Source: Clostridiaceae bacterium (GTDB taxonomy: Bacteria; Bacillota; Clostridia; Lachnospirales; Lachnospiraceae). Taken from it: DNA of 58,554 nt. The position numbers were made by a program, and so were the translations under genes. Where the stretch lies: positions 1 to 58,554 of the forward strand of contig CAJTGF010000029.1 in NCBI GenBank assembly GCA_910575585.1, read 5' to 3'. This document shows positions 33,801 through 51,977 of this stretch, one piece after another (position 1 is the stretch's first letter; each line of letters begins with the position of its first letter). The notes beneath the pieces were generated by a model. It saw only the letters and a list, made by a program, of their open reading frames with translations, was not told the origin of the DNA and did not search any database.

Positions 33801-33842
33801 AAGGTTTGCCAAAACTCATAGGTTTTGGCAAACCTTTTTTAT
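33801..33842 (+). terminator. Terminator of the sdpI-like gene
   Basis: AAAGGTTTGCCAAAAC pairs with GTTTTGGCAAACCTTT and is followed by six T. Confidence 0.95.
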
Positions 33843-33941
33843 TCTAATATCAGTCTTACATTATCATAATATCGTCAAATATTCAATAATCTTAACTTAT
33901 TTTATTATGGATTTTTACCCAATATTTTCAAGTAGTTGAAA

Positions 33942-33977
33942 GTGACCAAAACCTATACATTTTGGTCACCTATTTTT
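33942..33977 (+). terminator. Hairpin with T-run ahead of the TnpB-like gene
   Basis: GTGACCAAAA pairs with TTTTGGTCAC around 8 bases, followed by CTATTTTTG. It lies about 45 bases before the TnpB-like start codon and shares the CCAAAA/TTTTGG motif with the terminator at 33801. It may be a terminator, a relic of a transposon left end, or a control element. Confidence 0.55.
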
Positions 33978-34016: not shown

Positions 34017-35348
34017 ATGCCAAAAGATACCATATGCAAGACGGTCCACCAATACAATAAAACCAGGATCTCTCCGGAGGACATGGCTAAGCTTGGGGAG
34101 ATCGCAGAGGACTGCCGCAAGGTGAAAGATCACGTATACCGGCATTACGGAGGCATAAAAGGGCTTGGGAAGCTTTATCCGGGCTATACGATCCAGAATG
34201 AGATGACTGCCAGCGGACTCCGCCAGGAACTGGGGCTGCCGTCTGTGTATTTTTATCTGGCGGTGTTTGACGCGCTGGGTGATATAAAAAGCCAGTGGAC
34301 CCGGACAAAAGCAGCGGTTCTTAAGCGAGTGAACCATAATGAGCATTTGACCCAGGAGGAGAAACATTTCCTCAGATATCTTTTGCGGGTTCACAACGCA
34401 TTTGAGGCGGTTTTAAATCACAGGAGCGTAGTCCTGCCACAGGATCTGCAGAGACAGTACCAGTTCCTGGCCGGCGAAGTGGATGGAAAGAAGATGGAAA
34501 ATTACATTCGCAGGCAGGTTAGGAGCCTTCACGGGAAGCTGTCCGCAGAGAAGGCCCAGGGATTTTCCCTGACCGAGCGGGCTTACCGATATGAAGATCA
34601 CGGGATCTATGTGGCCACCAAAGAGAAGCGCAAACGGATCTTTATCCCTCTTACAGACAATAACCGATACACGAGACAGATCTATATGAAACTGTTTTTG
34701 GAAGAAGGAAACATTGAGATCAAGGTTCCCATTGATGTGGCTGTGAAAAAATACAGGGAATACAAAGGTGATGTGGGCCTGGCTATGGGGATGATGACCA
34801 TGTTTGTCACGGATGAAGGACATCGGTACGGGGACAAACTGGGAGAGTACCAGAGTGAACTGACCCAGTGGGTCCGGGATCAGACGGCGAAACACCGGGC
34901 GGACAGATTGGCCAATCCAGGCAGGAAGAAGTATGACGCAAAGAAGCGGCGATTGAATGAGCGGATTCACAGCTATATTAATATGGAGCTGAACCGTTTT
35001 CTGAAAACAGAGGAGCCAGCGGTGATCTATATTCCCAAACTGCCGGGTTCTGCAAAGCATGGGGGGAATAAAGCCATCAATCACTCCGCTACGATGTGGC
35101 AGAGGGGATATATCAGGAAACGTTTGGAACAAAAGTGTACGCAGCGATCTGTCAGGATCGTGGAAGTGTTTGGAAAGGGTATCAGCAGTCAGTGCAGCCA
35201 ATGCGGCGCAGTGGGAAAGAGAGCCCAGGAGATGTTTTCCTGTTCTGCCTGCGGATTTGAGACAGAGGAAAAGATCAATACCGCAAGGAATGTGAAGAAG
35301 CGGGGCATGGAAGCGGAGGCTGGAAGAGCCAAACAGAGAGTCGTTTGA
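34017..35348 (+). CDS. Nuclease-dead TnpB-like RNA-guided protein (TldR-like)
   Basis: 443 residues, related to TnpB of IS200/IS605/IS607 elements, which are RNA-guided DNA nucleases with a RuvC site of two Asp and one Glu. Here the fold marks remain, but every catalytic position is changed: RuvC-I reads VGLAMG (A256 where Asp is expected), RuvC-II reads VIYIPKL (P340 where Glu is expected), RuvC-III reads EEKINTARN (K419 where Asp is expected). The zinc finger C393-C396...C409-C412 is intact (SSQCSQCG, SCSACG). No TnpA gene is beside it. AAGGAGG lies 6 bases before the ATG. An intact frame without a working site fits an RNA-guided binder or repressor, as in TldR proteins. Role and target are inference. 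Confidence 0.8.
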   Translation: MPKDTICKTVHQYNKTRISPEDMAKLGEIAEDCRKVKDHVYRHYGGIKGLGKLYPGYTIQNEMTASGLRQELGLPSVYFYLAVFDALGDIKSQWTRTKAAVLKRVNHNEHLTQEEKHFLRYLLRVHNAFEAVLNHRSVVLPQDLQRQYQFLAGEVDGKKMENYIRRQVRSLHGKLSAEKAQGFSLTERAYRYEDHGIYVATKEKRKRIFIPLTDNNRYTRQIYMKLFLEEGNIEIKVPIDVAVKKYREYKGDVGLAMGMMTMFVTDEGHRYGDKLGEYQSELTQWVRDQTAKHRADRLANPGRKKYDAKKRRLNERIHSYINMELNRFLKTEEPAVIYIPKLPGSAKHGGNKAINHSATMWQRGYIRKRLEQKCTQRSVRIVEVFGKGISSQCSQCGAVGKRAQEMFSCSACGFETEEKINTARNVKKRGMEAEAGRAKQRVV

Positions 35349-35711
35349 GCGCATGGCAGGACAATGGCCAGGGTGTGTCTGGTCTAATGAGAAGAGATCA
35401 TAGGAGCCGCTGCCTTGATAAGCCAGGATGATGAGTCCTGACTTCATCCGGACGAAGGATTTCCAAGCCGGGACCGGGCGTTGGCTCATGATATAAAAAT
35501 AATACGGCATTAGAAGGCAGATGGATTTTAAAGGTCTGCGCATTGGGTATGCCAGGACTCTGGGAACACAGGTGTCAGCGGTGTTTTCTGCAAGTAGCAG
35601 GAGATGAGATTTTAAGCGGTCTGTGATGTAGCAGGGAGCGAAGCGGGAAGCCGCATCATCGAAAGATGACCAATATACCTTATTTTAAAATGGTTTGGAG
35701 ATGGCAGGAAA
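35349..35711 (+). ncRNA. Putative guide RNA region of the TnpB-like protein
   Basis: 363 bases without a gene, directly 3' of the TnpB-like gene, where TnpB guide RNAs lie. Short stems are visible: CAGGA/TCCTG (35424-35440), CCAAGCC/GGCGTTGG (35463-35484), TGATG/CATCA (about 35622-35658) and the GAAA tetraloop hairpin CATCGAAAGATG (35657-35668). The guide itself and the 3' scaffold end could not be fixed from one genome. Confidence 0.4.
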
Positions 35712-37079
35712 ATGAGAGAGAGACAAAAAAGGCAGGCGCTGGAAGTAGTGAGCTTGTTGGGAAAGATACAGGAAGAAATAGGAAAAGCCATCGAGACGAG
35801 AGGATATGAGGAAGCCAGGACGTTGTTGGCGCAGTGCCAGGAGCAGGCCATTGGACTGGGGGAAAGTATTGAGGAGACGGAAGGGGAAGGATCTCCTGCC
35901 ATCGGTTTTTTAGAAAGTTACTGTGAAAGGGTCTATGAGATCTACGAGGCTCTGGGCCAGGGCAATGAAGTGGATGGCAGGAAGGCGGTTAACGGGCTGA
36001 AAGAGGTTTTGACCCAGGCGGAGGATTTTGTAAAAAACCATATTCCCGTGAAAAGAGAGGTCGTATTTCTTCCCTATAAAGCATCTATGTGGGATTCACT
36101 GGAAAGCGTGTGGAAGGCAGCCCGAGAGGACCCGGACTGTGATGCTTATGTGATCCCGATCCCCTATTATACGAAGGATCCAAACGGAAATTTTGGTCAG
36201 GAGCATTATGAAGGGGATCAATATCCGGAATATGTTCCGGTGACAAGATATGAGGATTATAATTTTGCAGGAAGGCATCCAGACATGATTTTTATCCATA
36301 ACGCTTATGATGAGTGTAATTATGTCACCAGTGTCCATCCTTTTTTTTATTCAAAAAATCTGAAAAAGTTTACAGATAAATTGGTATATATACCTTACTT
36401 TATTCTGGAAGAGATTGAGCCGGATAACAAAGCGGCCATCAATGGAATGTCGCATTTGATCACAATACCAGGCATGATCTACGCAGATAAGGTGATCGTC
36501 CAATCAGAAAAGATGAGGCAGATCTATGTGGATGTGATGACAGAGTGTACAAAAGGCACAGCAGCGGGGAGAAAGTACTGGGAGGAGAAGATCTTAGGGC
36601 TGGGATCGCCGAAGATGGACCGGGTGATGGATACCAAGAAGGATCAGGTGGAGATACCGAAAGAGTGGAGAAAGGTTATTGAGAAAGAAGACGGCAGTTG
36701 GAAAAAGGTTATCTTTTATAATACCAGTGTATCGGCTCTGATAAGATATGGGGAAACGATGCTTGCGAAGATGCGGGATGTGTTTGAAGTGTTTCGTGAG
36801 AACCAGGAAGAGATTGCGCTGCTGTGGAGACCCCATCCGCTGATCAGGGCGACGATTGAGAGCATGCTGCCGCAGCTGTGGGAGGAGTATGAGGGGATCG
36901 TCAGGGAGTATCGGGCGGTTGGTTGGGGAATCTATGATGATACGGCGGATATTGACCGGGCGATCGCGCTGTGTGACGGGTATTATGGGGATCGGAGTTC
37001 GGTGGTCAGGCTTTGCCAGGAAGTTGGGAAGCCGGTGATGATACAGAATGTGGAGATTTTATCAGAGAAAGAGGCTTAG
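35712..37079 (+). CDS. CDP-glycerol glycerophosphotransferase-like protein
   Basis: 455 residues. An N-terminal helical region (1-105, RERQKRQALEVVSLLGKIQEEIGKAI) precedes a GT-B-like part: REVVFLPYKASMWDSLES, NPY-type VIPIPYYTKDPNG, VYIPYFILEE, LGSPKMDRV, KKVIFYNTSVS, LLWRPHPLIRATIES and YYGDRSSVVRLCQEVGKPV. This resembles the CDP-glycerol:glycerophosphate transferase group found in Lachnospiraceae surface-glycan loci, so transfer of a phospho-sugar or glycerol phosphate is likely; donor and acceptor are unknown. First gene of the long glycan locus. Confidence 0.75.
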   Translation: MRERQKRQALEVVSLLGKIQEEIGKAIETRGYEEARTLLAQCQEQAIGLGESIEETEGEGSPAIGFLESYCERVYEIYEALGQGNEVDGRKAVNGLKEVLTQAEDFVKNHIPVKREVVFLPYKASMWDSLESVWKAAREDPDCDAYVIPIPYYTKDPNGNFGQEHYEGDQYPEYVPVTRYEDYNFAGRHPDMIFIHNAYDECNYVTSVHPFFYSKNLKKFTDKLVYIPYFILEEIEPDNKAAINGMSHLITIPGMIYADKVIVQSEKMRQIYVDVMTECTKGTAAGRKYWEEKILGLGSPKMDRVMDTKKDQVEIPKEWRKVIEKEDGSWKKVIFYNTSVSALIRYGETMLAKMRDVFEVFRENQEEIALLWRPHPLIRATIESMLPQLWEEYEGIVREYRAVGWGIYDDTADIDRAIALCDGYYGDRSSVVRLCQEVGKPVMIQNVEILSEKEA

Positions 37080-37093: not shown

Positions 37094-37672
37094 ATGGATA
37101 ATCAATATATAAAAGAACTGATACAGCGGTTGGATGATACAGAGATTTGGAAAGGCGCTGGGCAGATGTGCAAGGATTATGACGAGGGGATCCGGTTTTT
37201 GACAGATACGTTTTTAGCGTATAAAAAAGATACAGCCCGGGTTTTCTTTATAGGAAACGGCGGCAGCGCGGCCATTGCCAGCCATATGACAGCGGATTTT
37301 ATGAAAAACGGCGGCATGAATACATACAGTTTATATGACAGTTCCGTTCTTACTTGCATGGGGAACGACTATGGATATGCATCTGTCTTTTCCAGACCAA
37401 TGGAGTTTTTGGTAAATGAAAGGGATCTGGTGGTGGCAGTCAGCAGTTCGGGAAATTCGCCGAATATTGTCAGCGCGATAGAAACAGCAAAGAAAAAGAA
37501 GACTATGGTGATGACGTTTACAGGATTTAAGCGGGATAACAGGGCCAAACAGATGGGAGATATCAATGTTTATGTTCCCTGTGAGAAGTATGGGATCGTA
37601 GAGTCTATCCATAATCTGATACTGCAGCAGATCGTAGATATGATCATGGAACAGGATGGGGTGGCGCTTTGA
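37094..37672 (+). CDS. gmhA: Sedoheptulose 7-phosphate isomerase, GmhA-like
   Basis: 192 residues with one SIS domain. Converts sedoheptulose 7-phosphate to D-glycero-D-manno-heptose 7-phosphate, the first step of heptose activation. Motifs: FIGNGGSAAIASHMTADFM, VAVSSSGNSPNIVSAI and a C-terminal helix (SIHNLILQQIVDMI). The next gene starts inside its stop codon (TTGA), and it encodes the GmhB-like phosphatase, which supports the assignment over other SIS enzymes. Confidence 0.88.
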   Translation: MDNQYIKELIQRLDDTEIWKGAGQMCKDYDEGIRFLTDTFLAYKKDTARVFFIGNGGSAAIASHMTADFMKNGGMNTYSLYDSSVLTCMGNDYGYASVFSRPMEFLVNERDLVVAVSSSGNSPNIVSAIETAKKKKTMVMTFTGFKRDNRAKQMGDINVYVPCEKYGIVESIHNLILQQIVDMIMEQDGVAL

Positions 37673-38217
37673 CCGTGGGTGTTAGAAAGCCGGCGGTATT
37701 TCTGGACCGAGACGGAGTTTTGACAGAGGAGAGAAGTTATGTGACGTGTTTGGAGGAATTAAAGATCTTTCCTTTTGCGCAGATGTGTGTAGAGCAGATC
37801 CATAAAAAAGGATATTATGCCATTGTTGTAACGAATCAGAGCGGGATCGCAAGGGGATTGTTTACGGAAAGTCAATTAGAAGAGATGAACCGGTTTCTGA
37901 TAGAAACGACAGGGGTGGATGCGGTTTACTACTGTCCCCACCATCCCCAGGGAAAGATAGAGCGATATGGAATAGAGTGTCAATGCCGGAAACCAAAGAC
38001 CGGCATGTTTGAAAAGGCATGCAGGGATTTTGCCATTGATATGGGAATGTCTTTTATGGTGGGGGATCGGGCGGGAGATGTGATAGCGGGGGAGAATGCC
38101 GGACTTCAGACGGTTTTAGCGGAGTCAGGGTATGGTTTAGCCAGGCTGGAAGCTGAGGTTGCGCCGGATCATATCATACAGGATTTGAGAGAGCTGACAG
38201 AAATACTTGTAGGTTAA
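37669..38217 (+). CDS. gmhB: D-glycero-D-manno-heptose 1,7-bisphosphate phosphatase, GmhB-like
   Basis: 182 residues, HAD superfamily. Motif I is FLDRDGVLTEE; motif II VTNQSGIARGLF; zinc-binding CPHHP and CQCRKPKTGMF; motif IV MVGDRAGDVIAGENAG. This is the full GmhB pattern; the enzyme removes the 7-phosphate of heptose bisphosphate. The start is TTG at 37669, overlapping gmhA by 4 bases. Confidence 0.9.
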   Translation: MTVGVRKPAVFLDRDGVLTEERSYVTCLEELKIFPFAQMCVEQIHKKGYYAIVVTNQSGIARGLFTESQLEEMNRFLIETTGVDAVYYCPHHPQGKIERYGIECQCRKPKTGMFEKACRDFAIDMGMSFMVGDRAGDVIAGENAGLQTVLAESGYGLARLEAEVAPDHIIQDLRELTEILVG

Positions 38218-38247
38218 AGAAAATTGAAGGGATTTAAGAATGATCAC

Positions 38248-39441
38248 ATGGAAATTTGCATTTACAATCACATAATTATAAAGATAAATGAAGTGTTACA
38301 TAAATATAGAAAAACTGATTCGAAATGTATTGTTTTAGTGGCTTTTTTGATTAAGCCTCGTATAGTTAAAATAGGATATGCATTAAGAAAAAAGGGATAT
38401 AAAGTTATTTTGTTTTTAGAGGAGAATAATAAAAAGGGACTATACAATTCCAAGGTAAGATTTTTTGATAGAGTTTCTCTTTTTAAATCAAAGGAAGAAG
38501 TGTATTGTAAATGTTTAATGTTAAATCCTCTGGTCTATCATCTGTTTACAGAAGCGTCGGTTAATGAATGGGCAGAATATATTGTAGACCGAAAACAAAA
38601 AATAGGGAAGATAGTATATGATCAATATGATGTGTATAAAGGAATATGCAGAATCCATAACAGGAATTGGGAAAAACGAGAAAAAAAATGTTTTGAAAAT
38701 GCTGATGGGATTTGTTGCAGATCCTTTCAGACACAATATCTGAAGCATTATATGGGATATAGATTTAAAGGAAAACGAATCCTATTTTTAGATTATTGTT
38801 GGGATAAATATCATTTTGTAAATGATAAAAAAGATAATGAAAATTTGCAAATTGTATATGGAGGACGTATTCTTTCGCCAAATTCGAAGGATACCTTATC
38901 GTTAGTAGAGTGGGAAACCGTTTGTTATATTGCGAAAAAGTTTAAGAAACATAAGGCGTATTTTATGATAATTCCTACGAAGTCAGCAACGGAGTACCCT
39001 GAATTTTTAAAACTGAAAAGAGATAACCAATATCTAAAAATAGAGGAGCCAATGAATTTTGATGAACTTATAAGATATGAGAGTAAAATGGATTATGGAA
39101 TAGATTGTTTCGAATTCCAATGTAAAATGGATGAATACGAAATAATGTTTAAAGGAATTGCGGATTACCGCGCAGATGCAAAATATTATGCGACAAATAA
39201 ATTTTTCGATTATTTGGATGCAGGAATTCCTATTATTTATGGAAGAAAGGGAGAACTGTTTGGAAGATATCTTTCTCATTTTGGCGTGGCAGCGGCATGT
39301 GCAGTGGAAGACATGCCTTATATGTTGGATGAGTTAAAGAGAAAAAGAGGAGAATATACGGAAAATGTAAAAAGAGCAAGAAAAGCTTTGGCTATAGAAA
39401 ATCAAATTGGAAGACTAATTGATTTTTATAAGAGTTTGTAG
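38248..39441 (+). CDS. Glycosyltransferase-like protein (GT-B)
   Basis: About 397 residues, not assignable to a numbered family by eye. It looks like a GT-B glycosyltransferase: DQYDVYKG and FENADGICCRS in the first half, then LQIVYGGRILSP, KHKAYFMIIP and NKFFDYLDAGIPIIYGRKGEL in the nucleotide-sugar domain. The start is uncertain: ATG 38248 has a weak, distant AAGGGA; TTG 38224 in frame is an alternative. It marks the beginning of a strongly AT-rich stretch. Confidence 0.7.
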   Translation: MEICIYNHIIIKINEVLHKYRKTDSKCIVLVAFLIKPRIVKIGYALRKKGYKVILFLEENNKKGLYNSKVRFFDRVSLFKSKEEVYCKCLMLNPLVYHLFTEASVNEWAEYIVDRKQKIGKIVYDQYDVYKGICRIHNRNWEKREKKCFENADGICCRSFQTQYLKHYMGYRFKGKRILFLDYCWDKYHFVNDKKDNENLQIVYGGRILSPNSKDTLSLVEWETVCYIAKKFKKHKAYFMIIPTKSATEYPEFLKLKRDNQYLKIEEPMNFDELIRYESKMDYGIDCFEFQCKMDEYEIMFKGIADYRADAKYYATNKFFDYLDAGIPIIYGRKGELFGRYLSHFGVAAACAVEDMPYMLDELKRKRGEYTENVKRARKALAIENQIGRLIDFYKSL

Positions 39442-39455
39442 GAGGGACCTATTGA

Positions 39456-40523
39456 ATGCAGCAAATAAATAACCCATATAGTGATCTGAAAATATTGTGT
39501 CATCCTGATAAAATAAAAGCTATTTTGCAGGAAGAGAGAACTTCGCCTCTTTACGTAAGAATAAAGCCAACAAATGTGTGTAATCAAAAATGTTGGTATT
39601 GTGTATATGCCAATGACTCTGTAATAGATAATAGAAATGTTGATAGACGTGAATCAATCCCATGGGCTAAGATGAAAGAAATTATAAATGACCTGTCTGA
39701 AATGGGTACAAAAGCAATTACTTTTAGTGGTGGAGGAGAGCCTCTTTGCTATCCGTATATCTATGATGCTTTGGATATGGTACAGAAGCATGGCATGGAT
39801 TATGCAATGATATCAAATGGACAGGGGTTAGAGGATAGAGTAATTTCTGTTTTGAAAAGCGCCAAGTGGGTTAGAATATCATTTGATTCTACGGATCGTG
39901 AACTGTATAAGAAGACAAGAGGAGTAGATACTTTTTCAAAAGTTGTAGATAATATAAAGCAATTTGCTATAGAAAAAGATAAATCTTGTGTATTGGGAGT
40001 AAATTTTGTTGTTACTAAGAATAATTATAAGGAAATTTATGATATGTGTGATTTGTTAGCTTCTATCGGTGTTAATAATATTAAATTTTCACCCTTAATG
40101 GTAAAAGGAACAAACTCTGATTATCATATGGAAATAAAAGCAGAGGTTGAGGAACAGTTAGCTAAGGCTGTGGAAAAATTTCAGAGTGACACATTCTGTA
40201 TTATTGATAAATATACAAATGATGAAAGTTTAGAAAAGAACTTTGTAAAAAGTAAAAGATGCCATATTAAGGAAGTCTTTACTGTAATTGGAGCGGATTG
40301 TAAAGTTTATTATTGTCATCAGAGAGCTTATACCAGGACAGGTGAGATTGGGGATTTAACAAATCAATCATTCAAAGAATTATGGTTTTCAGAACAAACT
40401 ACAAAAAAGTTTAGAGAAATGAAACCCCAAAGAGAATGCAATTTTCGATGCGCCTTTGAAGAAAGGAATCAGCTATTGGAATCGTTAGTAAATATGGATA
40501 GAAAGCACATTAATTTTATTTGA
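39456..40523 (+). CDS. Radical SAM/SPASM enzyme
   Basis: 355 residues. The radical SAM cluster motif CNQKCWYC is at about residues 42-49, followed by TFSGGGEPLCYP and WVRISFDSTDRELY. The C-terminal SPASM-like part has RCHIKEVFTVIGADCKVYYC, GEIGDLTNQSFKELW and ECNFRC, with cysteines for auxiliary clusters. In sugar loci such enzymes can epimerise, dehydrate or otherwise modify a sugar or a peptide; the substrate here is unknown. AGGAGGG precedes the ATG. Confidence 0.88.
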   Translation: MQQINNPYSDLKILCHPDKIKAILQEERTSPLYVRIKPTNVCNQKCWYCVYANDSVIDNRNVDRRESIPWAKMKEIINDLSEMGTKAITFSGGGEPLCYPYIYDALDMVQKHGMDYAMISNGQGLEDRVISVLKSAKWVRISFDSTDRELYKKTRGVDTFSKVVDNIKQFAIEKDKSCVLGVNFVVTKNNYKEIYDMCDLLASIGVNNIKFSPLMVKGTNSDYHMEIKAEVEEQLAKAVEKFQSDTFCIIDKYTNDESLEKNFVKSKRCHIKEVFTVIGADCKVYYCHQRAYTRTGEIGDLTNQSFKELWFSEQTTKKFREMKPQRECNFRCAFEERNQLLESLVNMDRKHINFI

Positions 40524-40566
40524 TATAAAGGAACACAAGAATAATGTAGACGGAGAATATATAGCA

Positions 40567-41574
40567 ATGTTATATGATCAGTTTTTTGCAATATTGGATT
40601 CTCTTCTGAGACCAGTGATGGATAAAAATATAATTATTTATGGATGTCAAGGTGGGGATTTCATTAGATGGTTTTGCGAAAGATATTATCAAAAAAAGGT
40701 GAAAGCTATTGTAGATAGGTGGGAATTGTCTCCGGGAATTACGATTTTACATCTATGGTCTTTTTATTATATATATGACCAAAATGATATTATTATAAAT
40801 ACAACTTCAAAACAAATTGAGGAAGAATTTAACGATACAGGAGAAGATTGGAGCAAAACAGGGTATCAAAGTGATCAAATCATCAATTTATGGAGCCTGA
40901 TATACAAAAAAAATCAATTGAATGAGAGTGATGGAAGAAAGTGGGAAATTTCTTATTACGATTGGCTTGAATATAAATATGGGGTTGATATCCTCATTAC
41001 AATCAAAAGAAAATTTGTAAAAGGTATGCATGCGCATGGATATTTTCCGACAGAATTTCGTGTTTTTTTAGAAGGTATATCTGATCATGAGTTTTCAAAA
41101 GAAGATTCTATTTTAGATATAGGATGTGGAAAGGGAAGTGGCATAATGGCACTTTTGGCATGCGGATTCCAGACAGTAGGAGCAGTTGAGTATACAGAAA
41201 ATATTTATCAAACGTTAATTAGTAATTTGAGAAAAATGAATATTGAGTATATTGAACATATGATGGATTCTGATAATCAGATGGTAAGAGAAAAGGTAAA
41301 CTGTTATCTGGGAGATGCATCTTGTTTGAAAAAACAGTTAGATGACTATAACTGGTTTTTTTTATTCAATCCTTTTTCCTGGGAGGTTGTGCAGTCTGTT
41401 TTGGCAAATATATGTAACAGCTTAAAAGAAAAACCAAGGAAAGCGTATATTTTTTATGCAGAACCTATAGGCCATAAGTTGATTATGGATACTAAGATGT
41501 TTCAAATAAAGAAAAAATTATGTTCAGATTTTTCTTGTGTGAGCTATTATTCATATTTATATGAATCAATATGA
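40567..41574 (+). CDS. Methyltransferase with N-terminal Rossmann-like module
   Basis: 335 residues. The N-terminal ~110 residues show the module that recurs in this locus (NIIIYGCQGGDFIRWF, KVKAIVDRW). The C-terminal half is a class I SAM methyltransferase: motif I ILDIGCGKGSGIMALLACGF, acidic residue after AVEY, and NWFFLFNPFSW. Substrate unknown; probably a sugar of the surface glycan. Confidence 0.8.
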   Translation: MLYDQFFAILDSLLRPVMDKNIIIYGCQGGDFIRWFCERYYQKKVKAIVDRWELSPGITILHLWSFYYIYDQNDIIINTTSKQIEEEFNDTGEDWSKTGYQSDQIINLWSLIYKKNQLNESDGRKWEISYYDWLEYKYGVDILITIKRKFVKGMHAHGYFPTEFRVFLEGISDHEFSKEDSILDIGCGKGSGIMALLACGFQTVGAVEYTENIYQTLISNLRKMNIEYIEHMMDSDNQMVREKVNCYLGDASCLKKQLDDYNWFFLFNPFSWEVVQSVLANICNSLKEKPRKAYIFYAEPIGHKLIMDTKMFQIKKKLCSDFSCVSYYSYLYESI

Positions 41575-41599
41575 AGATATTATCCTTTAGGAGGTTTTT

Positions 41600-42592
41600 A
41601 TGACAATTGAAGATAAAATCAGAAAAGCGATAATCGATGCTGTGAATACTAAAAGCAAGAAAGGGATAGTAATATATCCGTTTGGTGTGTATGGCAAAAA
41701 GGTAAAAGATATTTTAAATAAAGAGTTCGATATATATGAAGCTTATATAATCGATAATAACATTTCTGAAGATTCCAGGATACAACAGGTAGAATCTATG
41801 GATAATATGAACGATTATATTTATCTTATTGCATGCAGGGATACGAAAGTGTTTACCGATATAATGAAGACACTTAATCTAAAAGTGGATGATGAAAATA
41901 TTATTGATATATTTGCGGAGTGGCATTATCACTTATATCAGGAACCGGAATTTGTTTTGTATGATGCTACGCGGAAAGGAATGGATCTGGGAGGGTGGTA
42001 TGAAAAAAGGCTTAATCAGGTTGGACGGACAGATACAGTGACAGATGCAATCATGAATACGATAAGCATACCAGAGGGTGGGACTTTTTGTGAAATAGGA
42101 CCAGGGACTGGAAGGTATATGCAAAAGTTCATTGAAAAAGCTAGACCGCAAAAATATGAATTTTACGAAGTCCAAAAAAAATTGGCTGAATATTTAGTAA
42201 AAGCTCTTAATTATAATTTCTGCGAAGTAATTGCCAGAGAAGCAGACGGATACAGTTTGAAGGATACTCATTCTTGTTCACAGGATGTCATATTTGCAAA
42301 CAGTGTTTGGCCAATTATAAAATATTCTAATATCTATCAATATTTTCTTGAGATGATACGAGTATGTAAAGTTGGTGGATATGTAATATTCGACGCTTAT
42401 ACAGAAGATTCTTATACAGAGAGAATTTTGAATGATAAAAATTGTTTACTAAATGAATGGCGTCTTCTGCCTAACCGTATGATTATGGATATATTTATTA
42501 GTCGGAAAATGAAATTAGAGCATAAATTTGAATTCCCTTATATTAATTTTATGGGTTCATGGTATATATTTAAGAAATTAGATAACAAGTAA
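41600..42592 (+). CDS. Methyltransferase with N-terminal Rossmann-like module
   Basis: 330 residues. N-terminal module: GIVIYPFGVYGKKVKDIL, then EAYIIDNN. The C-terminal part is a class I SAM methyltransferase: FCEIGPGTGRYMQKFIEKA, YEFYEVQKKLAEYL and VIFANSVWPIIKY. GAGGTTTTT precedes the ATG. It is next to another methyltransferase of the same architecture, but the sequences are clearly different, so two methylation steps are likely. Confidence 0.8.
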   Translation: MTIEDKIRKAIIDAVNTKSKKGIVIYPFGVYGKKVKDILNKEFDIYEAYIIDNNISEDSRIQQVESMDNMNDYIYLIACRDTKVFTDIMKTLNLKVDDENIIDIFAEWHYHLYQEPEFVLYDATRKGMDLGGWYEKRLNQVGRTDTVTDAIMNTISIPEGGTFCEIGPGTGRYMQKFIEKARPQKYEFYEVQKKLAEYLVKALNYNFCEVIAREADGYSLKDTHSCSQDVIFANSVWPIIKYSNIYQYFLEMIRVCKVGGYVIFDAYTEDSYTERILNDKNCLLNEWRLLPNRMIMDIFISRKMKLEHKFEFPYINFMGSWYIFKKLDNK

Positions 42593-42630
42593 AGATGTTT
42601 TGGTTTTCTTATAAAGGGAGGCATAATAGC

Positions 42631-43701
42631 ATGAAGATTAGCGCTTGGAACATATCATTAGGAGAAGACGAGGCAAGAGCTGCATATGAAAGTGTTATGA
42701 ATAGAAACCTTAGCGAGGGGATTAAAGTAAAAGAATTGGAAGAAAGGTTAGCAAGTTTTCTTGGGAAAAAGTATGCAATTTGCGTACCAAACGGATCTTC
42801 GGCTGTACTACTTGCAATGATGGGAATAGGGATAAAACCAGGTGATGAGGTAATCATTCCTGATTTTACATTTATAGCTACAGGCCATGCGCCTAAATTG
42901 CTTGGAGCAGATGTGATACTGGCAGATGTTAAAGAAGATATACCAGTGTTGGATATTGAAAAAGTTTTAGAATTGATTACTCCGAAGACAAAGGCAATTA
43001 TACCAGTGCATCTAAATGGCAGAAGAGCAGAAACGAAAAGATTGAAAGAGGCATTAAAGGACACTGGAATTTATGTTGTTGATGATGCTTGTCAAGCCTT
43101 TGCTTCTGGAAAAAAAGGTGATTATGCAGGGTGTGATGCAGATATAGCATGTTATTCATTTGCGGTGACAAAAATCATGACAACAGGACAGGGAGGATTT
43201 GTGACAACAGATGAGGATGAGTTATATCTGAGAATGAAAAGATTAAAAATGCAGGGAATGGATAATATTTTTGAAAGCAACGATTATCAGTTGGCAGGAT
43301 TTAACCTAAAATATACCGATATACTGGCTTCAATCGGGTTGGTCCAATTAGGGAAAATTCCGGAAAAAGTAAAGAATAGCAAAAGGCATTACGGCTTATA
43401 TAAGAAAGCATTAGAGGAATCTAAAAATATAAGAATGATTCCGACAAAAGAAGATGAAATTGTTTATACCCCAGATATATTAGTCAAAGATTCTAAGAGG
43501 ATCAGAGAATATTTGGAAGATAAAATGATTCAGGTAAGACCGGCTGGAGCATGCTTGCATAGGGCAAATTATTTTATTCAGCGCAGCAAATATAAAAATG
43601 CGGAGTTTTTTGAAAGACATCTTCTTTATATGCCGGGTGGGCCTGATCAACCAGAAAAGAATATACAGACAGCGATAGGAGAGTTGTTAGCATTGGAGTA
43701 A
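42631..43701 (+). CDS. DegT/DnrJ/EryC1/StrS aminotransferase
   Basis: 356 residues, PLP-dependent. It aminates keto sugars to amino sugars for glycans. Motifs: CVPNGSSAVLLAMMGIGIKPGDEVI, DFTFIATGHAP, VDDACQAFASGKKG and the PLP-lysine region YSFAVTKIMTTGQGGFVTT. The start at 42631 follows AAGGGAGG; an open frame upstream is not needed. With the epimerase at 49.8 kb it points to an amino-sugar in the repeat unit. Confidence 0.9.
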   Translation: MKISAWNISLGEDEARAAYESVMNRNLSEGIKVKELEERLASFLGKKYAICVPNGSSAVLLAMMGIGIKPGDEVIIPDFTFIATGHAPKLLGADVILADVKEDIPVLDIEKVLELITPKTKAIIPVHLNGRRAETKRLKEALKDTGIYVVDDACQAFASGKKGDYAGCDADIACYSFAVTKIMTTGQGGFVTTDEDELYLRMKRLKMQGMDNIFESNDYQLAGFNLKYTDILASIGLVQLGKIPEKVKNSKRHYGLYKKALEESKNIRMIPTKEDEIVYTPDILVKDSKRIREYLEDKMIQVRPAGACLHRANYFIQRSKYKNAEFFERHLLYMPGGPDQPEKNIQTAIGELLALE

Positions 43702-43707
43702 TTTAAA

Positions 43708-44817
43708 ATGAAGACAATTATTATTATAACAGAATGCAGAAGATATCGATTTAATTATGGAGAAACTTTGCAGGCAGTAGCCCTAAATAAGGTGCTTTCA
43801 AATTTGGGATTTAAGTGCATTACTGCATCTTATGAAAATGAAAAAAATGATTTGAAAGGATGGATGCTGCCTAATATAAAAACATATGCATTAAGAGGAA
43901 TTAAATTTGAACTTTTTAGACATAGACATATAGTTTATCCAATATTCAGAAGTAATAAAAAAGAAGATTTTGAAAAGCTGATTGATAAAGCTGACGTCTT
44001 ATTTTGCGGAAGTGATTGTATTTGGTATGAAAAAGATTACAATGATATCTTATTTATGTTTTTTCCTAAGAAAAAAATACCTAAAATTGCCTATGCACCT
44101 TCTCTGCGGGATAGTGTGGTAACTGATAATATGTATGAAAAGAGGGTGTCAAAGTGGATTGGGCAGATTGATCATTTATCAACAAGAGAATTAGATGGAA
44201 GCCGGATAATTGAAGAGATCTCAAAACGAACATGTCAAACTGTTCTTGATCCTACATTGCTATTAGATAAAAGAATATGGGATAATATGTCTGGAAAGCG
44301 TATTATAAAAGAATCGTATATAGTATTGTATATTATAGGAAAAAGCAGGGAACTGGTGCCTATACTCACGCAGGTTAAGAAGTTTTATAAAAATAGGAGA
44401 ATTATATGGATAGGAATGGAAAATAACAATGGCTATCCATTCGGAGATGTTTTGATCGATATAGGGCCTGCGGAGTTTATATCTTTGATCAAATATGCTG
44501 ATGCGGTAATTACTGATTCTTTTCATGGAACCGCCTTTTCTATCATTTATGAAAAGCAGATGTATTCCATAAAGAGAATTGTAAATAAAAGAGATATCTA
44601 TGACAATGATTGTCGTATAAAAAATGTTTTTGATTTTTTGGGTATTCATAATTATTATACAAAGAGTGATAAAATTGATTTTAAGGGGGCGGAGATTGAT
44701 TATCAAGAAGTAAGCAAAAAACTTAAAAAACAGAGAGAAACATCTTTAGATTATATTGTTAACGCATTGAAAGATGAAGGGCTATTAAAATATGGTAAAA
44801 ACGATAGAGTTTGTTGA
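43708..44817 (+). CDS. Polysaccharide pyruvyl transferase family protein
   Basis: 369 residues. Family hallmarks: NYGETLQAVALNKVLSNLG, DVLFCGSDCIWYEKDY, ISTREL-like LSTRELDGSRII, and AVITDSFHGTAFSIIY near the C-terminus. Members add pyruvyl ketals to sugars. It overlaps the next gene by 26 bases; that gene encodes an FrhB-like iron-sulfur protein that is often its neighbour. Confidence 0.88.
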   Translation: MKTIIIITECRRYRFNYGETLQAVALNKVLSNLGFKCITASYENEKNDLKGWMLPNIKTYALRGIKFELFRHRHIVYPIFRSNKKEDFEKLIDKADVLFCGSDCIWYEKDYNDILFMFFPKKKIPKIAYAPSLRDSVVTDNMYEKRVSKWIGQIDHLSTRELDGSRIIEEISKRTCQTVLDPTLLLDKRIWDNMSGKRIIKESYIVLYIIGKSRELVPILTQVKKFYKNRRIIWIGMENNNGYPFGDVLIDIGPAEFISLIKYADAVITDSFHGTAFSIIYEKQMYSIKRIVNKRDIYDNDCRIKNVFDFLGIHNYYTKSDKIDFKGAEIDYQEVSKKLKKQRETSLDYIVNALKDEGLLKYGKNDRVC

Positions 44818-45907
44818 AGAAGAGCAATGTGTTGGATGTACTGCATGTAAAAATATATGTCCTGGAAAATGTATAAGTATGGTTAAAAACCTTGAAGGTT
44901 TTTCTGTCCCTAAAATAAATTCAGCAGATTGTTTTCATTGTGGCAAATGTTATGAAACCTGTCCAGTTATCAATGTGAAAGAGAGAAGAGTGAAGCCTGT
45001 CATATTAGGCATGATAAATAAATGCGCAGAGATTAGAAACGAAAGTTCATCAGGCGGTGTCTTCTATGAACTTGCTAGGGCAATTATTTCTGAAGGCGGC
45101 ATTGTCTGCGCGGCTTCGCTTAGTGAGGAGAATATAACAGTAAAACATGTATTTATAGATAGAGTTGAAGAGATTGGATTATGTACAAAATCAAAGTATG
45201 TAGAGAGTGATTTACAGGATGTTTATATACGGATACAGGCATATTTAAAAAAGGGAAAAAAAGTATTGTTTGTCGGAACACCATGCCAGGTATATGGATT
45301 GTCTGTCTTTTTAGATCGCGATTATGAAAATTTATTTTTAGTAGATTTATTCTGTCATGGGGTTCCATCGCCTGCTGTGTGGGATGAATTTATAGATTAT
45401 ATGCAGCAAAAATATAACAGCAGAATCAGCGCAGTATCTTTTCGGGATATGTCAATATCAGGGTGGAAAAACTTTGGAATGAGGATATTATTTGAAAATG
45501 GAGCGGAATATGTTGATACTCAGGATAAAAATCCTTTTATGTTTGGATTTTTAGAGGGATATATTAACAGACAGTGTTGTTATAAGTGTAGGTTTAAGAA
45601 AAGAAACAGAAAAAGTGATTTAACATTGGGTGATTTTTGGTCGGTAGATAAATATATAGATAAATTTAATGATAACAGAGGAACCTCTTTGGTCTTAGTA
45701 AACAGTAAAAAGGGCGTAAAACTTATAAAATCAGTAAGAACTAGTTTTTATATTAAGAGGGAATCTAGCACAGATATTGGGAAAATAAATAGCGCTTATT
45801 CGATGTCAGTTTCAAATATAAAAAATAGAGAATATTTTTTTAAAAAGTTTCTGAAAGGCATGAAGTCGGTCAATATTTTAATAATAGAGATGAAAAAAGT
45901 GAGGTAA
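44792..45907 (+). CDS. Coenzyme F420 hydrogenase/dehydrogenase beta subunit-like iron-sulfur protein
   Basis: 371 residues. Two [4Fe-4S] motifs near the N-terminus (CVGCTACKNICPGKC and CFHCGKCYETCP), then FrhB-like domains (SSSGGVFYELARAI, VLFVGTPCQVYGL, FCHGVPSPAVWDEFIDY, DLTLGDFW). Proteins of this type accompany pyruvyltransferases in polysaccharide loci; their reaction is not known. Translationally coupled to the pyruvyltransferase. Confidence 0.88.
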   Translation: MVKTIEFVEEEQCVGCTACKNICPGKCISMVKNLEGFSVPKINSADCFHCGKCYETCPVINVKERRVKPVILGMINKCAEIRNESSSGGVFYELARAIISEGGIVCAASLSEENITVKHVFIDRVEEIGLCTKSKYVESDLQDVYIRIQAYLKKGKKVLFVGTPCQVYGLSVFLDRDYENLFLVDLFCHGVPSPAVWDEFIDYMQQKYNSRISAVSFRDMSISGWKNFGMRILFENGAEYVDTQDKNPFMFGFLEGYINRQCCYKCRFKKRNRKSDLTLGDFWSVDKYIDKFNDNRGTSLVLVNSKKGVKLIKSVRTSFYIKRESSTDIGKINSAYSMSVSNIKNREYFFKKFLKGMKSVNILIIEMKKVR

Positions 45908-45912
45908 GGAGA

Positions 45913-47010
45913 ATGAATGATATATATGATCTCTTAGAGAGGCCAGAGAAATATATGTTACAGGCAGGGGGGGAATATGAACTGATATCAGAGATGAGTT
46001 TTTTGCGTTCTCTTGTTAAGTATAGAAACTATAATATTTTTGTATATGGCGCAGGGATACGAGGAGAATATATAATAAGATGGTTAAATATGGAACATGT
46101 CCCGATATCATTTATCATAGACCGTGATAAAAAAAAGGAAGGAACTGAAATTAGTGGGTGTACAATATATAGTTTAGATAAATTGGATGATCAGCCTAAA
46201 GATAGAAAATATTTGGCTATTATTGCTACTGCAAAGTTTGAAACAGAGAAGGAGGAAATTATATCTGTATTATATGCACATGGAATTTTTCAGTACATAT
46301 ATCCATTTACAACAGAATACAATATGCCGGAATACAGGTATGAATGGGCATATTATTTTCTGCATAATAAGAAAAAGATAATACAATCATATGCTCTATT
46401 TGAGGATATAGAATCAAAAAAAATTTTCTTTGAGTATATAAAAACTATTTTAACGAATTGTGTTTATAGAGGAATACAGCAAAAAACAGAAAAAAAATAT
46501 TTTGAATGTTATACTCCATTAAAGAATGAAGTTTTTTTGAATGTTGGAAGTTATGTGGGGGATACAATATTTTATTTTATCGAAAATAGAAAGGAAGAAT
46601 TTGAAAAAATCTATGGAGTAGAAGGAAATAAAAAAATATATTTAAGATTGATAAGAAATCTAAATATCTTACCAGATAGAATAAAAAATAAGATTGAATG
46701 CATGTGCAGTTATTTGGATAATAAGAATGCAGATGCATTCGCAAATCGAAAGATAACATTGATCAATATGGATATAGAGGGAGCAGAAGGGGAGGTTCTT
46801 GTTGGTTTGAAGAATTGCATCATAGAGAACAGACCTGTATTAGCATTATGCGCATACCATAGATCAGATGATTTAATTGAATTACCGAATGTAATTAATA
46901 GTATGGTAGATAAATATAAATTCTTTTTGAGAAAGTATGCCCCTCCATATGGAAATCATCTGGAGAATGGGGAATTGGTTTTATATGCTGTTCCGGAGGA
47001 GCGAAGCTGA
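45913..47010 (+). CDS. FkbM-family methyltransferase with N-terminal Rossmann-like module
   Basis: 365 residues. The N-terminal module is NIFVYGAGIRGEYIIRWL, ISFIIDRDKKKEG. The C-terminal FkbM domain has VFLNVGSYVGDTIFYFIEN, YGVEGNKKIYLRL and LINMDIEGAEGEVLVGL. FkbM enzymes O-methylate sugars or polyketides. AAGGAG precedes the ATG. Third methyltransferase of the locus. Confidence 0.87.
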   Translation: MNDIYDLLERPEKYMLQAGGEYELISEMSFLRSLVKYRNYNIFVYGAGIRGEYIIRWLNMEHVPISFIIDRDKKKEGTEISGCTIYSLDKLDDQPKDRKYLAIIATAKFETEKEEIISVLYAHGIFQYIYPFTTEYNMPEYRYEWAYYFLHNKKKIIQSYALFEDIESKKIFFEYIKTILTNCVYRGIQQKTEKKYFECYTPLKNEVFLNVGSYVGDTIFYFIENRKEEFEKIYGVEGNKKIYLRLIRNLNILPDRIKNKIECMCSYLDNKNADAFANRKITLINMDIEGAEGEVLVGLKNCIIENRPVLALCAYHRSDDLIELPNVINSMVDKYKFFLRKYAPPYGNHLENGELVLYAVPEERS

Positions 47011-47041
47011 AGGTTGACTTAAAAGGAATAAGAGTGAAAAA

Positions 47042-48253
47042 ATGAATAGTTTAATTTGCCAGGGCAGTGTGTTTTATCAAAATAAAGAATGGTTTGTATG
47101 TACGGAAAGTGATAGAGTATATCAAAAAGATTTATCTACTGGAATAGTGGATATATTGTGTGTTATTCCGAGAAGAGGTAAAAATAGTGAGCGTCCTTAT
47201 GGGGGAATTTGTTATTTTGATGATCAAATCATAGTTTATCCTTATTGCTCTAATATACTTTGGATATATAATTTGAAAAATAGTAATTTTACACAGGTTA
47301 AAGTTTCAAATGAAGAGGAATTTCTGTATATAAGTACGGCTTTTATTGAGAGTAATTATTTGTATATGTTATCATATGGAAAAAATAAGATTTTGAAATT
47401 TGATTTGTATAGTAAATTACTAAAGGTTTACAACATACCTAATATTAAAAACGGTGAAGGGGCATACTCAGATGCAAAATTGATTAAGGGAAAAATATAT
47501 ATGCTTGTTAATAACAGGCCATGGATAATAGCATTTGACCTGGAAGAATGCACGTTTGATATATATAATATAAAGTGTGAATTAGATGGATTGTATACTA
47601 TAGAATTTGATGGCAGATATTTTTGGGTTACAGGAAAAGGCGATAAACTAATTAAGTGGGATAGATCAACTAATCAAGTTGTAGAGAGTTTTGAATTCCC
47701 TGATTATATGGAATGCTTTTTGTATAGAAATGAAGAACTTATATGGATTAAAGGGAAGGATTTAAAAAAGAACCACATATTTCCATTTTATAGAAGTCTC
47801 ATAATAAAGTATAAATTAGTATTAATTCCATTTACTGCAAATTATATCTTAGCATTTGATATAAAAGAAAAGAAATATATAATTATAAATATAGACAATC
47901 AAGAAGAGAATTTTAGAGATCTTTCTGGTATTTATCCAGGATGGCTTGGACATAAATATTTGATAGAGGGTGTGGATTTTGAGGAAAAGCTATATCTTTA
48001 TTCGTTGCGTCGAAGATTATCATATATAATTGATTTAGATATGCTTGAAGTTAGGGAAAATATATGGAATCAGGATGGGCGATATAATTATGAAGATCTT
48101 CAGGAGTATTATATAGAAAATGGCTATCAAAATATTCTCTTGGATTATATGAAATTTATTTTACTAGCAAATAGAACTAAAGGCTCTTTAAACGACATGG
48201 AAATAGAAAAAGTGGTAGGAACAAAAATATATAGAGAAGTAAGGAAGATATAA
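47042..48253 (+). CDS. Unrecognised protein, possible beta-propeller
   Basis: 403 residues, no signal peptide or membrane segment. Repeated strand-rich segments of about 45 residues with Trp-Ile/Phe-Asp patterns (NILWIYNLKNSNFTQV, NKILKFDLYSKLLKVY, PWIIAFDLEECTFDIY, DKLIKWDRSTNQVVESF, YILAFDIKEKKYIII) suggest a six- or seven-bladed propeller. This is inference from pattern. Its place between FkbM and HldE-like genes points to glycan work, perhaps binding or chain modification. Confidence 0.72.
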   Translation: MNSLICQGSVFYQNKEWFVCTESDRVYQKDLSTGIVDILCVIPRRGKNSERPYGGICYFDDQIIVYPYCSNILWIYNLKNSNFTQVKVSNEEEFLYISTAFIESNYLYMLSYGKNKILKFDLYSKLLKVYNIPNIKNGEGAYSDAKLIKGKIYMLVNNRPWIIAFDLEECTFDIYNIKCELDGLYTIEFDGRYFWVTGKGDKLIKWDRSTNQVVESFEFPDYMECFLYRNEELIWIKGKDLKKNHIFPFYRSLIIKYKLVLIPFTANYILAFDIKEKKYIIINIDNQEENFRDLSGIYPGWLGHKYLIEGVDFEEKLYLYSLRRRLSYIIDLDMLEVRENIWNQDGRYNYEDLQEYYIENGYQNILLDYMKFILLANRTKGSLNDMEIEKVVGTKIYREVRKI

Positions 48254-48257
48254 CAAA

Positions 48258-49787
48258 ATGGAGAAAATTATAAGTAAAAATGAGTTTAGAGTCATAAGGG
48301 ATTCTTTAAAAAATAGTCACAAAAAGGTAATTCTATGTCATGGAGTTTTTGATCTGCTGCATCCTGGGCATATCCAGCATTTCCAGGAGGCAAAAAGTTT
48401 GGGGGATGTTTTAGTAGTTTCAGTAACATCGGCGCCATATGTTCGAAAAGGGCCTGATCGACCATATTTCAATGATCAGTTAAGGTTGCATTCGCTGGCA
48501 GCTATCGGTTGCATTGATTATGTTATTTTGTCTGAGGGATATACAGTGGATGATATTGTAAAAGCTGTTCAGCCGGATATATACGTAAAAGGACAGGAGT
48601 ATCATAATGCAGAAGCTGATATAACCGGTAAAATTTCAGAAGAAATCGCATTGGTCAGAAAATATGGAGGGGATATTTATTATACAAATGGAGAGGTATT
48701 TAGTTCGACTAAGTTAATTAATCAGGCATTTCCAATATTTAGAGATGAGATCAGATCATATCTTGTTGAATTTAAGAAGAAATATGATTTTTCTAGCATA
48801 GTTTCTTATATACATAAAATGGAAAAACTGAAAATCTTGGTAATTGGCGACGTTATTATAGATAATTATGTCTTTTGTAAAATCCAAGGGTTAATGTCGA
48901 AAAATATAGGATATTCAGCCAAGTACATATGTGAGGAAAACTATTTAGGGGGAAGTTTAGCTATTGCAAGCCATCTCTCTGAATTTTCAAAATCGGTGAC
49001 ATTAATGTCTGTAGTTGGGAATGAAGATAAATTAAATAAAGTTATAGACGCAGGATGTGAGAATAAACTATTTTTGGATTTAGTTAGGTCAGAAAGATTC
49101 AGCACAATAATTAAAAAAAGGTATGTAGAACGAGATGAGAAAAGAAAAGAATTAAATAAAATATTTGTTATAAACAATTTAGCTGATGATATGGAAATAG
49201 ACGATAAATCCATGAATATTTTCAAAACAAAACTGAAAGAGAGAATTTCTGGATATGATGTTGTTTTTTTGTGTGATTTTGGGCATGGATTGATAGATAA
49301 TGAAGTGATGGATATTGTACAGGAGAAAGCGAAGAAACTTATCTTGAATTGTCAGACAAATTCATCAAATTATGGCTTGAATCCGATTACAAAATATGAA
49401 AATGCGGATTTCTTTTCTTTGGATGAAAAAGAGCTTCGTTTGGCGTTTGGCGATTATAAGAAAGGTGATATGGATTTATTAATGAAATTATCTGAGAGAT
49501 TAAATGCAAGTGGATGGCTGACAAAAGGATCAAAAGGCGCTGTTTCTATTTTCGAAGGAAAAATCAGCGAGTGTCCCGCTTTTATACTAGACGTAATGGA
49601 TACGATTGGAGCGGGAGATGCTTTTTTCTCATTAGCAGGGTTAGCTGTAGCAGTGACTGCTCCTATGGAGATTGGAACCTTTTTGGGAAATATTGCAGGC
49701 GCGTTAGCAGCAAATGTGATAGGGAACAAGAGTCATGTAGAGAAAGTGAATCTTATGAAATATGTCAGTACTTTATTAAACTTCTAG
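48258..49787 (+). CDS. HldE-like bifunctional heptose nucleotidyltransferase/kinase, reversed domain order
   Basis: 509 residues. N-terminal cytidylyltransferase-like domain: HGVFDLLHPGHIQHF with the HxGH motif at 35-38, then YVKGQEYHNAEADITGK and SSTKLIN. C-terminal PfkB kinase domain (about 190-505): ILVIGDVIIDNYVF, GGSLAIASHLS and the catalytic DTIGAGD (448-454). Together these would phosphorylate heptose 7-phosphate and, after GmhB, transfer a nucleotide (ADP in known RfaE/HldE enzymes). In E. coli HldE the kinase comes first; here it is second. With GmhA and GmhB this completes an activated heptose route. The nucleotide and anomer are not proved. Confidence 0.85.
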   Translation: MEKIISKNEFRVIRDSLKNSHKKVILCHGVFDLLHPGHIQHFQEAKSLGDVLVVSVTSAPYVRKGPDRPYFNDQLRLHSLAAIGCIDYVILSEGYTVDDIVKAVQPDIYVKGQEYHNAEADITGKISEEIALVRKYGGDIYYTNGEVFSSTKLINQAFPIFRDEIRSYLVEFKKKYDFSSIVSYIHKMEKLKILVIGDVIIDNYVFCKIQGLMSKNIGYSAKYICEENYLGGSLAIASHLSEFSKSVTLMSVVGNEDKLNKVIDAGCENKLFLDLVRSERFSTIIKKRYVERDEKRKELNKIFVINNLADDMEIDDKSMNIFKTKLKERISGYDVVFLCDFGHGLIDNEVMDIVQEKAKKLILNCQTNSSNYGLNPITKYENADFFSLDEKELRLAFGDYKKGDMDLLMKLSERLNASGWLTKGSKGAVSIFEGKISECPAFILDVMDTIGAGDAFFSLAGLAVAVTAPMEIGTFLGNIAGALAANVIGNKSHVEKVNLMKYVSTLLNF

Positions 49788-49798
49788 GGGGTATTTTT

Positions 49799-51294: not shown

Positions 51295-51310
51295 CATATA
51301 TTATCATATA

Positions 51311-51367
51311 ATGCGAATTTTATTTATTGCCAATATAGTTAGCTTATATGGAGCAAATCGCTTCTGA
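51311..51367 (+). pseudogene. Remnant of a family 4 glycosyltransferase N-terminus
   Basis: Eighteen codons, MRILFIANIVSLYGANRF then stop, that match the start of the glycosyltransferase at 51978 (MIRILFITHSISLYGATRS) closely at both levels. The rest of the gene is missing. It sits after Rossmann paralog 1 just as the full gene sits after paralog 2, which points to duplication followed by deletion. Confidence 0.75.
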
Positions 51368-51449
51368 AAAGGCTGAAATAGAGTTTTTTCGATATTTATT
51401 AGGAGAGTGTATTAGATGAGAAACACAGGATATTAGGAGTTAATATAGC

Positions 51450-51938: not shown

Positions 51939-51977
51939 ATAGTTACGAATGTAGAAAAATAGTAGAGGAAGTAGAAA

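Follow-up and report, generated by a model that had tools for sequence, protein, structure and literature searches.

A nuclease-dead TnpB family with an adjacent structured RNA and an apparently invertible promoter heads bacterial surface-glycan operons

Introduction

An RNA 3' of tnpB is the ancestral transposon arrangement. NusG-like proteins of the UpxY and LoaP types are antiterminators of capsule operons, and UpxY operons lie behind invertible promoters. Hin-like recombination sites are 26 bp long, with 12-bp arms and a 2-bp core. The founding paper on TnpB-like nuclease-dead repressors (TldRs) reportedly appeared in 2024.

In its accessible part, PMC13418256 describes TldRs associated with csrA at flagellin-linked loci, together with hin inversions, and states that 6-nt seeds can suffice for TldR. 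The terms polysaccharide, glycan and capsul are absent from its main text. Literature searches on TnpB or inversion, which covered few subscription or bioRxiv works, returned no paper on an association between dead TnpB and glycans among the matches listed.

Here, a window of 58,554 nt was analysed (contig CAJTGF010000029.1 of assembly GCA_910575585.1, Clostridiaceae bacterium), in which a preliminary description had recognised a TnpB-like protein without RuvC catalytic residues. As in TldRs, so far as the accessible text describes them, the protein is a TnpB homologue that has lost RuvC catalysis, with a scaffold-like RNA beside it and non-transposon neighbours; the likeness extends to a link with surface structures and to inversions, apparent here and of ~120 bp near some TldR loci (PMC13418256, accessible part). 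In contrast to the flagellin linkage given there, glycan operons are concerned here, and the dead TnpB is their first gene. The RNA here also differs in ending in a conserved tail for which target searches were empty.

With TnpB of IS200/IS605 elements, the family shares the C-terminal RuvC/zinc-ribbon homology and an RNA 3' of the gene, but it lacks the catalytic triad and stands in a chromosomal operon position; by eye, no TnpA-like gene was recognised beside the 15 loci compared (the window and 14 others). UpxY and LoaP resemble it in being encoded by the first gene of long polysaccharide operons and, for UpxY, behind an invertible promoter, but they belong to an unrelated protein family: Pfam and NCBIfam searches of the 443-aa protein gave TnpB/Cas12f-type models with weak zinc-ribbon and other matches, and no NusG domain. 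The Hin and Mpi invertible promoters are matched by 26-bp dyads around a promoter, by the occurrence of both orientations and by a serine recombinase at 12 loci, with the difference that inversion is deduced here from sequence comparison between species and loci.

Results

Protein family and lost catalytic triad

Relatives were collected by a profile scan of genome contigs, in which 231 of 274 pattern matches were confirmed. The window, 14 loci from related genomes and the best 80 of the 231 relatives (95 proteins) gave 88 distinct proteins after removal of 7 duplicates. The record titles of the relatives mostly name Lachnospiraceae or genera like Hungatella and Dorea, and some name Clostridiaceae, Clostridia, Eubacterium or an uncultured bacterium.

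The intact frame of the preliminary description was confirmed: its 443 codons start with ATG after an AGGAGG ribosome site and include zero internal stops. The protein matched PF07282 (Cas12f1-like TNB; zinc-ribbon/RuvC-III region) above the Pfam cut-off (E 1.6e-8) and scored 48.1 bits with guided_TnpB of NCBIfam, which is sub-threshold for this model (cut-off 100). A profile built from 15 family members matched 17 PDB sequences at E <= 0.001, mainly Cas12f, TnpB-like and other Cas12-type proteins (best 8.6e-11).

The catalytic positions were located with three anchors that all carry D/E/D, namely a Thermus TnpB, a TnpB fragment from the window's own genome and an Acinetobacter TnpB-related protein. 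In agreement with the earlier reading, the three residues align to A256, P340 and K419; positions II and III were the same in the PDB-profile alignment, and position I in a further alignment. Across the 88 distinct proteins, position 256 is A (57), S (29) or H (2), position 340 is V (41), P (35), A (8), T (3) or M (1), and position 419 is K (78), R (7), A (2) or G (1). The catalytic Asp/Glu/Asp thus occurs at these three positions in 0/88 proteins, and the four cysteines of the finger, noted before as kept in the window, are present in all 88. Because the triad is absent in every protein compared, its loss is a trait of the family and not the chance of one copy. The features of the locus are collected in Table 1.

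Table 1. Features of the dead-TnpB locus in the window
Feature	Position	Strand	Evidence or remark
Left recombination-site-like 26-bp dyad (TTGCCAAAACTCATAGGTTTTGGCAA)	33806..33831	.	Motif and site-pair scoring
Promoter segment, taken as invertible, OFF in the assembly	33832..33942	.	Aligns to reverse-complemented L024 and L036
Sigma-70-like promoter (TTGAAT, 17 nt, weak -10), facing away from the gene	33858..33886	-	One mismatch allowed; position read off the sequence
Right recombination-site-like 26-bp dyad (TGACCAAAACCTATACATTTTGGTCA)	33943..33968	.	Motif and site-pair scoring; terminator-like
Nuclease-dead TnpB-like protein	34017..35348	+	443 aa; ORF, domain and alignment evidence
Codon 256, Ala replacing RuvC-I Asp	34782..34784	+	Family and anchor alignments
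Codon 340, Pro replacing RuvC-II Glu	35034..35036	+	Family, PDB-profile and anchor alignments
CxxC...CxxC zinc ribbon (C393, C396, C409, C412)	35193..35252	+	Kept in 88/88 family proteins
Codon 419, Lys replacing RuvC-III Asp	35271..35273	+	Family, PDB-profile and anchor alignments
Structured RNA, candidate partner of dead TnpB	35485..35686	+	Six helices, possible pseudoknot, conserved 3' tail (here CCAATATACCTTATTTT)
C1, first glycan-operon gene	35712..37079	+	Glycerophosphotransferase-like, via relatives
Surface-glycan genes	37094..58455	+	Domain searches, subset of ORFs

Glycan operons downstream of the gene

The dead TnpB is the first gene of a long polysaccharide operon, which would be read as a single transcript. 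C1 of the window matched no Pfam or NCBIfam model; its relatives matched PF04464 with 5.8e-7 (L029) and, below the cut-off, 2.6e-4 (L024). Behind C1, the functions recognised were SIS isomerase, GmhB-like phosphatase, cytidylyltransferase/kinase, aminotransferase, pyruvyl transferase, glycosyltransferases, WbsX and RgpF. Many glycan loci are headed by C1, C2 or C3 (window 35712-37079; L026 13091-14775) without a clear family call.

On the same strand and within 6 kb downstream, C1 was found at 54/88 loci, C2 at 25/88, C3 at 20/88 and any of them at 73/88; C1 lay upstream of the dead TnpB at 1/88. Of the 15 loci without C1, C2 or C3, 4 have less than 2 kb of sequence; in the remaining 11, inspection by eye recognised genes of glycan type. 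This recurrent place at the head of glycan operons strongly supports the link to surface structures that had been suggested for the window.

The neighbours named earlier (a repeat, an SdpR/SdpI pair and a surface-glycan locus) were found in position, SdpR/SdpI upstream of the dyads and the glycan locus downstream of the gene. Conservation of this neighbourhood holds for the glycan genes (73/88) and fails for SdpR/SdpI, which had no counterpart at the 14 other loci compared and therefore look like flanking sequence outside the system. Over 33700-53600, terminators were not in excess (9 on both strands versus 7.6 expected), so that there is no direct sign that antitermination is needed.

Structured RNA 3' of the gene

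An RNA element, the candidate partner of the dead TnpB, occupies the gap from the gene to the next gene, its less conserved 5' part starting near 35395. Five helices covary in most pairs and the first is nearly invariant; RNAalifold predicted 33 pairs from 46 sequences, 23 of them with compensatory changes. In the drawn structure, 95.2% of cells are paired versus 86.2% in shuffles, which ignore relatedness (0/500 as high), and both-side changes occur at 21/34 pairs; slid versions score 28-46%, a comparison in which the drawn structure is favoured by having been drawn from one test sequence. ATTGG and CCAAT could form a pseudoknot. Helix 1 and the pseudoknot helix are each invariant at 4/5 pairs, and covariation hardly probes either.

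The RNA model, with 46 loci in training, matched 86/88 loci, always on the sense strand and downstream of the gene, including 40 loci outside training. The two misses were L055 and L101 (where the contig ends 22 nt past the gene); among the 86, L034 and L035 are weak, L092 is cut by the contig end, and L059 and L068 are split. L055 is the sole family locus with sufficient flank but without the RNA, and is also without a called inverton. No match was given at five extra loci (L037, L038, L039, L233 and L234). The last of these (G003:C7 70000-85000) is a glycan locus with a serine recombinase, a promoter core and C1, without dead TnpB.

Under stricter filters, 61 genomes gave 12 RNA matches (6 genomes), all adjoining dead-TnpB genes, and no solo RNA; this search missed the divergent loci L034 and L035. 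In Rfam searches of 33400-36000 with E up to 5, no match overlapped the RNA, and matches of miRNA models on the left-site hairpin were rejected as spurious. Since the ancestral transposon arrangement likewise has the RNA 3' of the gene, this position alone is no proof of cis action.

RNA tail and search for targets

Past its last hairpin, the RNA terminates in CCAATRTDYYTTATTW, in the region where the guide presumably starts in TnpB systems. The 3' end is much alike across loci and species: 11/16 tail positions are identical in 77 or more of the 80 anchor-bearing loci (partly through the choice of anchor), positions 5, 7, 8, 9 and 15 are variable, and past the tail the similarity among loci drops.

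These properties bear on a possible explanation that is a close rival to action on the own operon, namely a TldR-like RNA-guided repressor acting in trans, whose guide, short and formed by the tail or the following nucleotides, would silence a conserved promoter or gene; competing glycan operons could for example be silenced, which would limit the cell to a single coat at any moment. It would account for the loss of catalysis as in TldR with a scaffold-like RNA adjacent, and for the presence of several loci per genome (7 full-length loci in Sporofaciens musculi). Known TldRs regulate surface structure and some adjoin hin with ~120-bp inversions (PMC13418256, accessible part). Against a repressor in trans stand the likeness of the tail in the 80 tail-bearing loci and the outcome of the target searches. 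Allowing 2 mismatches, the tail had 9 matches in its own genome versus 12 for the control. Allowing 1 mismatch, 55 matches were found in 8 genomes, 23 of them at dead-TnpB RNA ends by position and 1 beside a gene fragment, and the 31 matches elsewhere compare with 34 for the control; the 15 exact matches all fall within those 24. The tail matched its own upstream region as well as swapped tails did, a weak test because the tails are so alike. Extended by the following bases, tails did not match promoters of other loci in their own genome better than promoters from foreign genomes (116 same-genome versus 2538 other-genome comparisons, four loci without a recognised tail omitted; raw means <= 0.27 base apart).

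Three further readings of the tail were rejected: a variable guide matching the promoter, after the upstream comparison equalled swapped tails, the cross-locus comparison gave no clear excess and genome pattern searches gave no second exact site; a match to the C1 coding region, taken by judgement as codon coincidence; and, by inspection, a coding start (ATGACCAAT...), since several loci, among them L046, L051 and L082, do not keep the start codon. The motif AT[AGT][CT][CT]TTATT had 207 occurrences versus 88 in shuffles and, besides RNA tails, clusters on the + strand ~2.0-2.5 kb from the gene start, at C1 codons for IPYF/IPYY; zero copies were found in C1 of the window and of L023.

The conserved tail and the empty target searches together argue against a freely programmable guide. 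A hidden DNA target may persist, because 6-nt seeds would escape these searches and five tail positions vary. The earlier proposal of an RNA-guided DNA-binding protein therefore stands in part: a candidate partner RNA is present, and guided DNA binding has so far no support, given the well-conserved tail and the empty searches (which very short guides would escape).

Promoter segment and flanking dyads

The head-to-head repeat described beside the gene is real, and consists of two recombination-site-like dyads, 137 bp apart, that enclose an AT-rich promoter segment. With up to 1 mismatch, the dyad pattern occurs in the own genome solely at the two dead-TnpB loci; with up to 3 mismatches, there were 31 matches versus 53 for the control. 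The right dyad is followed by a T run (33942-33969) and resembles an intrinsic terminator, which an ON transcript would need to cross.

Where 300 nt or more lie upstream (80 loci; 8 are shorter), inverted flanking repeats (at least 19 of 24) were present at 61/80, versus 0/80 block shuffles and 0/77 downstream controls; the 61 include L083, L087 and L093, which hold palindromic both-orientation copies, as well as L082 and L108, alike by spacing. The repeat score of the window (18/24) is below the cut and equals the shuffled maximum. Its site-pair score of 39 exceeds the highest value among 400 shuffles (35), as do the scores of 41/80 loci. The best sigma-70-like promoter in the segment scores 9.66 on average versus 5.62 in shuffled sequence.

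Naive orientation scoring of the 61 loci gave 48 OFF, 9 ON and 4 ambiguous, some labels resting on weak motifs and that of L024 on a wrong motif, its orientation being confirmed by alignment. The stricter set of 41 loci gave 31 OFF, 7 ON and 3 without a call; palindromes from assembly may underlie three ON calls in both sets (L082, L087 and L093). L024 and L036 carry the segment ON, the window and L023 carry it OFF, and the first two align to the others after reverse-complementing, the core motif in L024 and L036 reading opposite to that of the window; L023 and L024 have upstream genes in common. These opposite orientations were seen between species and loci, not inside one strain. The six repeat-flanked loci of S. 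musculi are all OFF (the seventh is without flanking repeats), and three loci of Schaedlerella arabinosiphila have no flanking repeats. Near-identical pairs were dropped as proof of inversion, which is not rested on L083, L087 and L093 because their palindromic copies are possibly assembly artefacts. From the orientations in the other loci, we infer that the segment flips by site-specific recombination.

Recombinases near the promoter segment

Twelve inverton loci have a serine recombinase gene within 1.1 kb upstream (in one case on the opposite strand, in one case partial), and a tyrosine-recombinase reading of the dyads was dropped in favour of Hin-like sites, serine recombinases adjoining inverton loci. 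Among the 19 loci below the repeat cut, which include the window and L035, 8 have a tyrosine integrase upstream. Loci with such an integrase and without a called inverton are L030, L033, L061, L074, L078, L085, L110 and L115, the integrase at L085 and L110 being on the other strand. The own genome has 47 tyrosine-recombinase matches and a homologue of the L032 recombinase (76%) elsewhere; close homologues are also carried by G006 and G019, genomes that lack dead TnpB. In the own genome, a second homologue of the serine recombinase (G000:C1:46863-47447; L233 7843-8478) lies inside an apparent glycan locus (by eye).

That the complex biases or blocks the recombinase at the flanking sites, and so locks the segment ON once the operon is expressed, appears improbable. 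With the promoter segment immediately in front of it, the gene would be expressed in one orientation alone, and the serine recombinase genes at the 12 inverton loci fit such a role; but protein and RNA are also kept where no inversion was called, a tyrosine integrase standing upstream instead at 8 of the 19 below-cut loci, and L209, L210 and L211 have the RNA without clear flanking repeats.

Selection and distribution

The ratio dN/dS was 0.045-0.128 for 16 family pairs, 8 of which are saturated (dS > 1). In the family sample (E 1e-60, own genome counted), dead TnpB was found in 17/397 genomes and 14/334 genera, a patchy distribution with frequently several copies per genome. Searches of phage records (50,697) and plasmid records (72,556) yielded distant TnpB-type matches only (4 and 18 records, < 60% identity; 20-28% among the 12 matches listed). 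A contig from a viral collection (L241, 1-9257) carries in series an endolysin-like gene, a serine recombinase, dead TnpB, the RNA and C1, and reads as a dead-TnpB cassette next to or within a prophage. Holin- and amidase-like genes stand upstream of the dead-TnpB locus at L031 (by eye). At G100:C2:1245863-1245998 (L177), a short dead-TnpB fragment adjoins an exact copy of the RNA tail and is perhaps a deleted locus.

Decayed or partial copies exist (G010:C62 with stops; partial matches and one stop-bearing copy in the family sample), and the possibility raised before, of frame-broken transposon leftovers, is answered by the absence of frequent frame breaks from the 88 proteins. A functionless decaying remnant or passenger, such as an IS607-like leftover pairing a serine recombinase with TnpB, is very improbable: it would explain the decayed copies, the patchy distribution in 17/397 genomes and the serine recombinases beside some loci, and is opposed by purifying selection in place of a neutral dN/dS, the fixed zinc finger, RNA covariation, the recurrent operon position, the lack of frequent frame breaks and the L032 recombinase, whose catalytic domain lies at residues 5-148 of 205, the DNA-binding domain of IS607 TnpA being reportedly N-terminal. 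The loss of the triad in 88/88 proteins, purifying selection and the repeated placement in front of glycan operons bear out the proposed domestication, and a domesticated family is strongly supported by these comparisons.

Discussion

The firm part is the anatomy of the locus, in which glycan operons are headed by a dead TnpB, a structured RNA and a promoter that appears invertible. We tentatively prefer, as the best reading of this anatomy, a TnpB-RNA pair exapted to regulate the phase-variable glycan operon to which it belongs. It is favoured because of the triad loss in 88/88, the low dN/dS, the RNA in 86/88 with its covariation, the polar gene order, the inverted repeats and the two promoter orientations. 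Action on the own operon is favoured in particular because the tail is conserved and the unit of protein, RNA and operon is strict. Counted against it are L234, with invertase and C1 in the absence of dead TnpB and RNA, and L055, with the protein and no RNA.

As a regulator of its own operon, TnpB would have lost its nuclease, and the protein and its 3' scaffold RNA would have been retained as a regulatory unit that leads phase-variable glycan operons. A site-specific recombinase would invert the ~130-bp promoter segment, as suggested by both orientations among relatives, and a promoter facing the gene would give a single transcript of dead TnpB, RNA and glycan genes. By analogy with TnpB biology, the dead TnpB would bind the structured RNA, and the complex, no longer freely programmable, would act chiefly on its own operon, where, on the nascent leader RNA, it may help or tune transcription through the long glycan operon. 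NusG-like proteins have the same positional role, heading capsule operons. A more specific version is somewhat unlikely, in which the complex gave up programmable guiding and became a cis-acting switch, such as a processive antiterminator, by which expression of the glycan operon is tied to promoter inversion.

The system is directly testable, because the named strains S. musculi WCA-9-b2 and S. arabinosiphila DSM 106076 carry dead TnpB. The locus also contributes a structured RNA, for which the searched part of the window gave no Rfam match. If the conserved tail reflects a loss of programmability, it would represent a different way of reusing TnpB. The findings suggest an RNA-protein switch for bacterial surface coats, and would extend the exaptation of transposon RNA-guided nucleases from the control of flagellin to the phase-variable glycan coats of gut bacteria.
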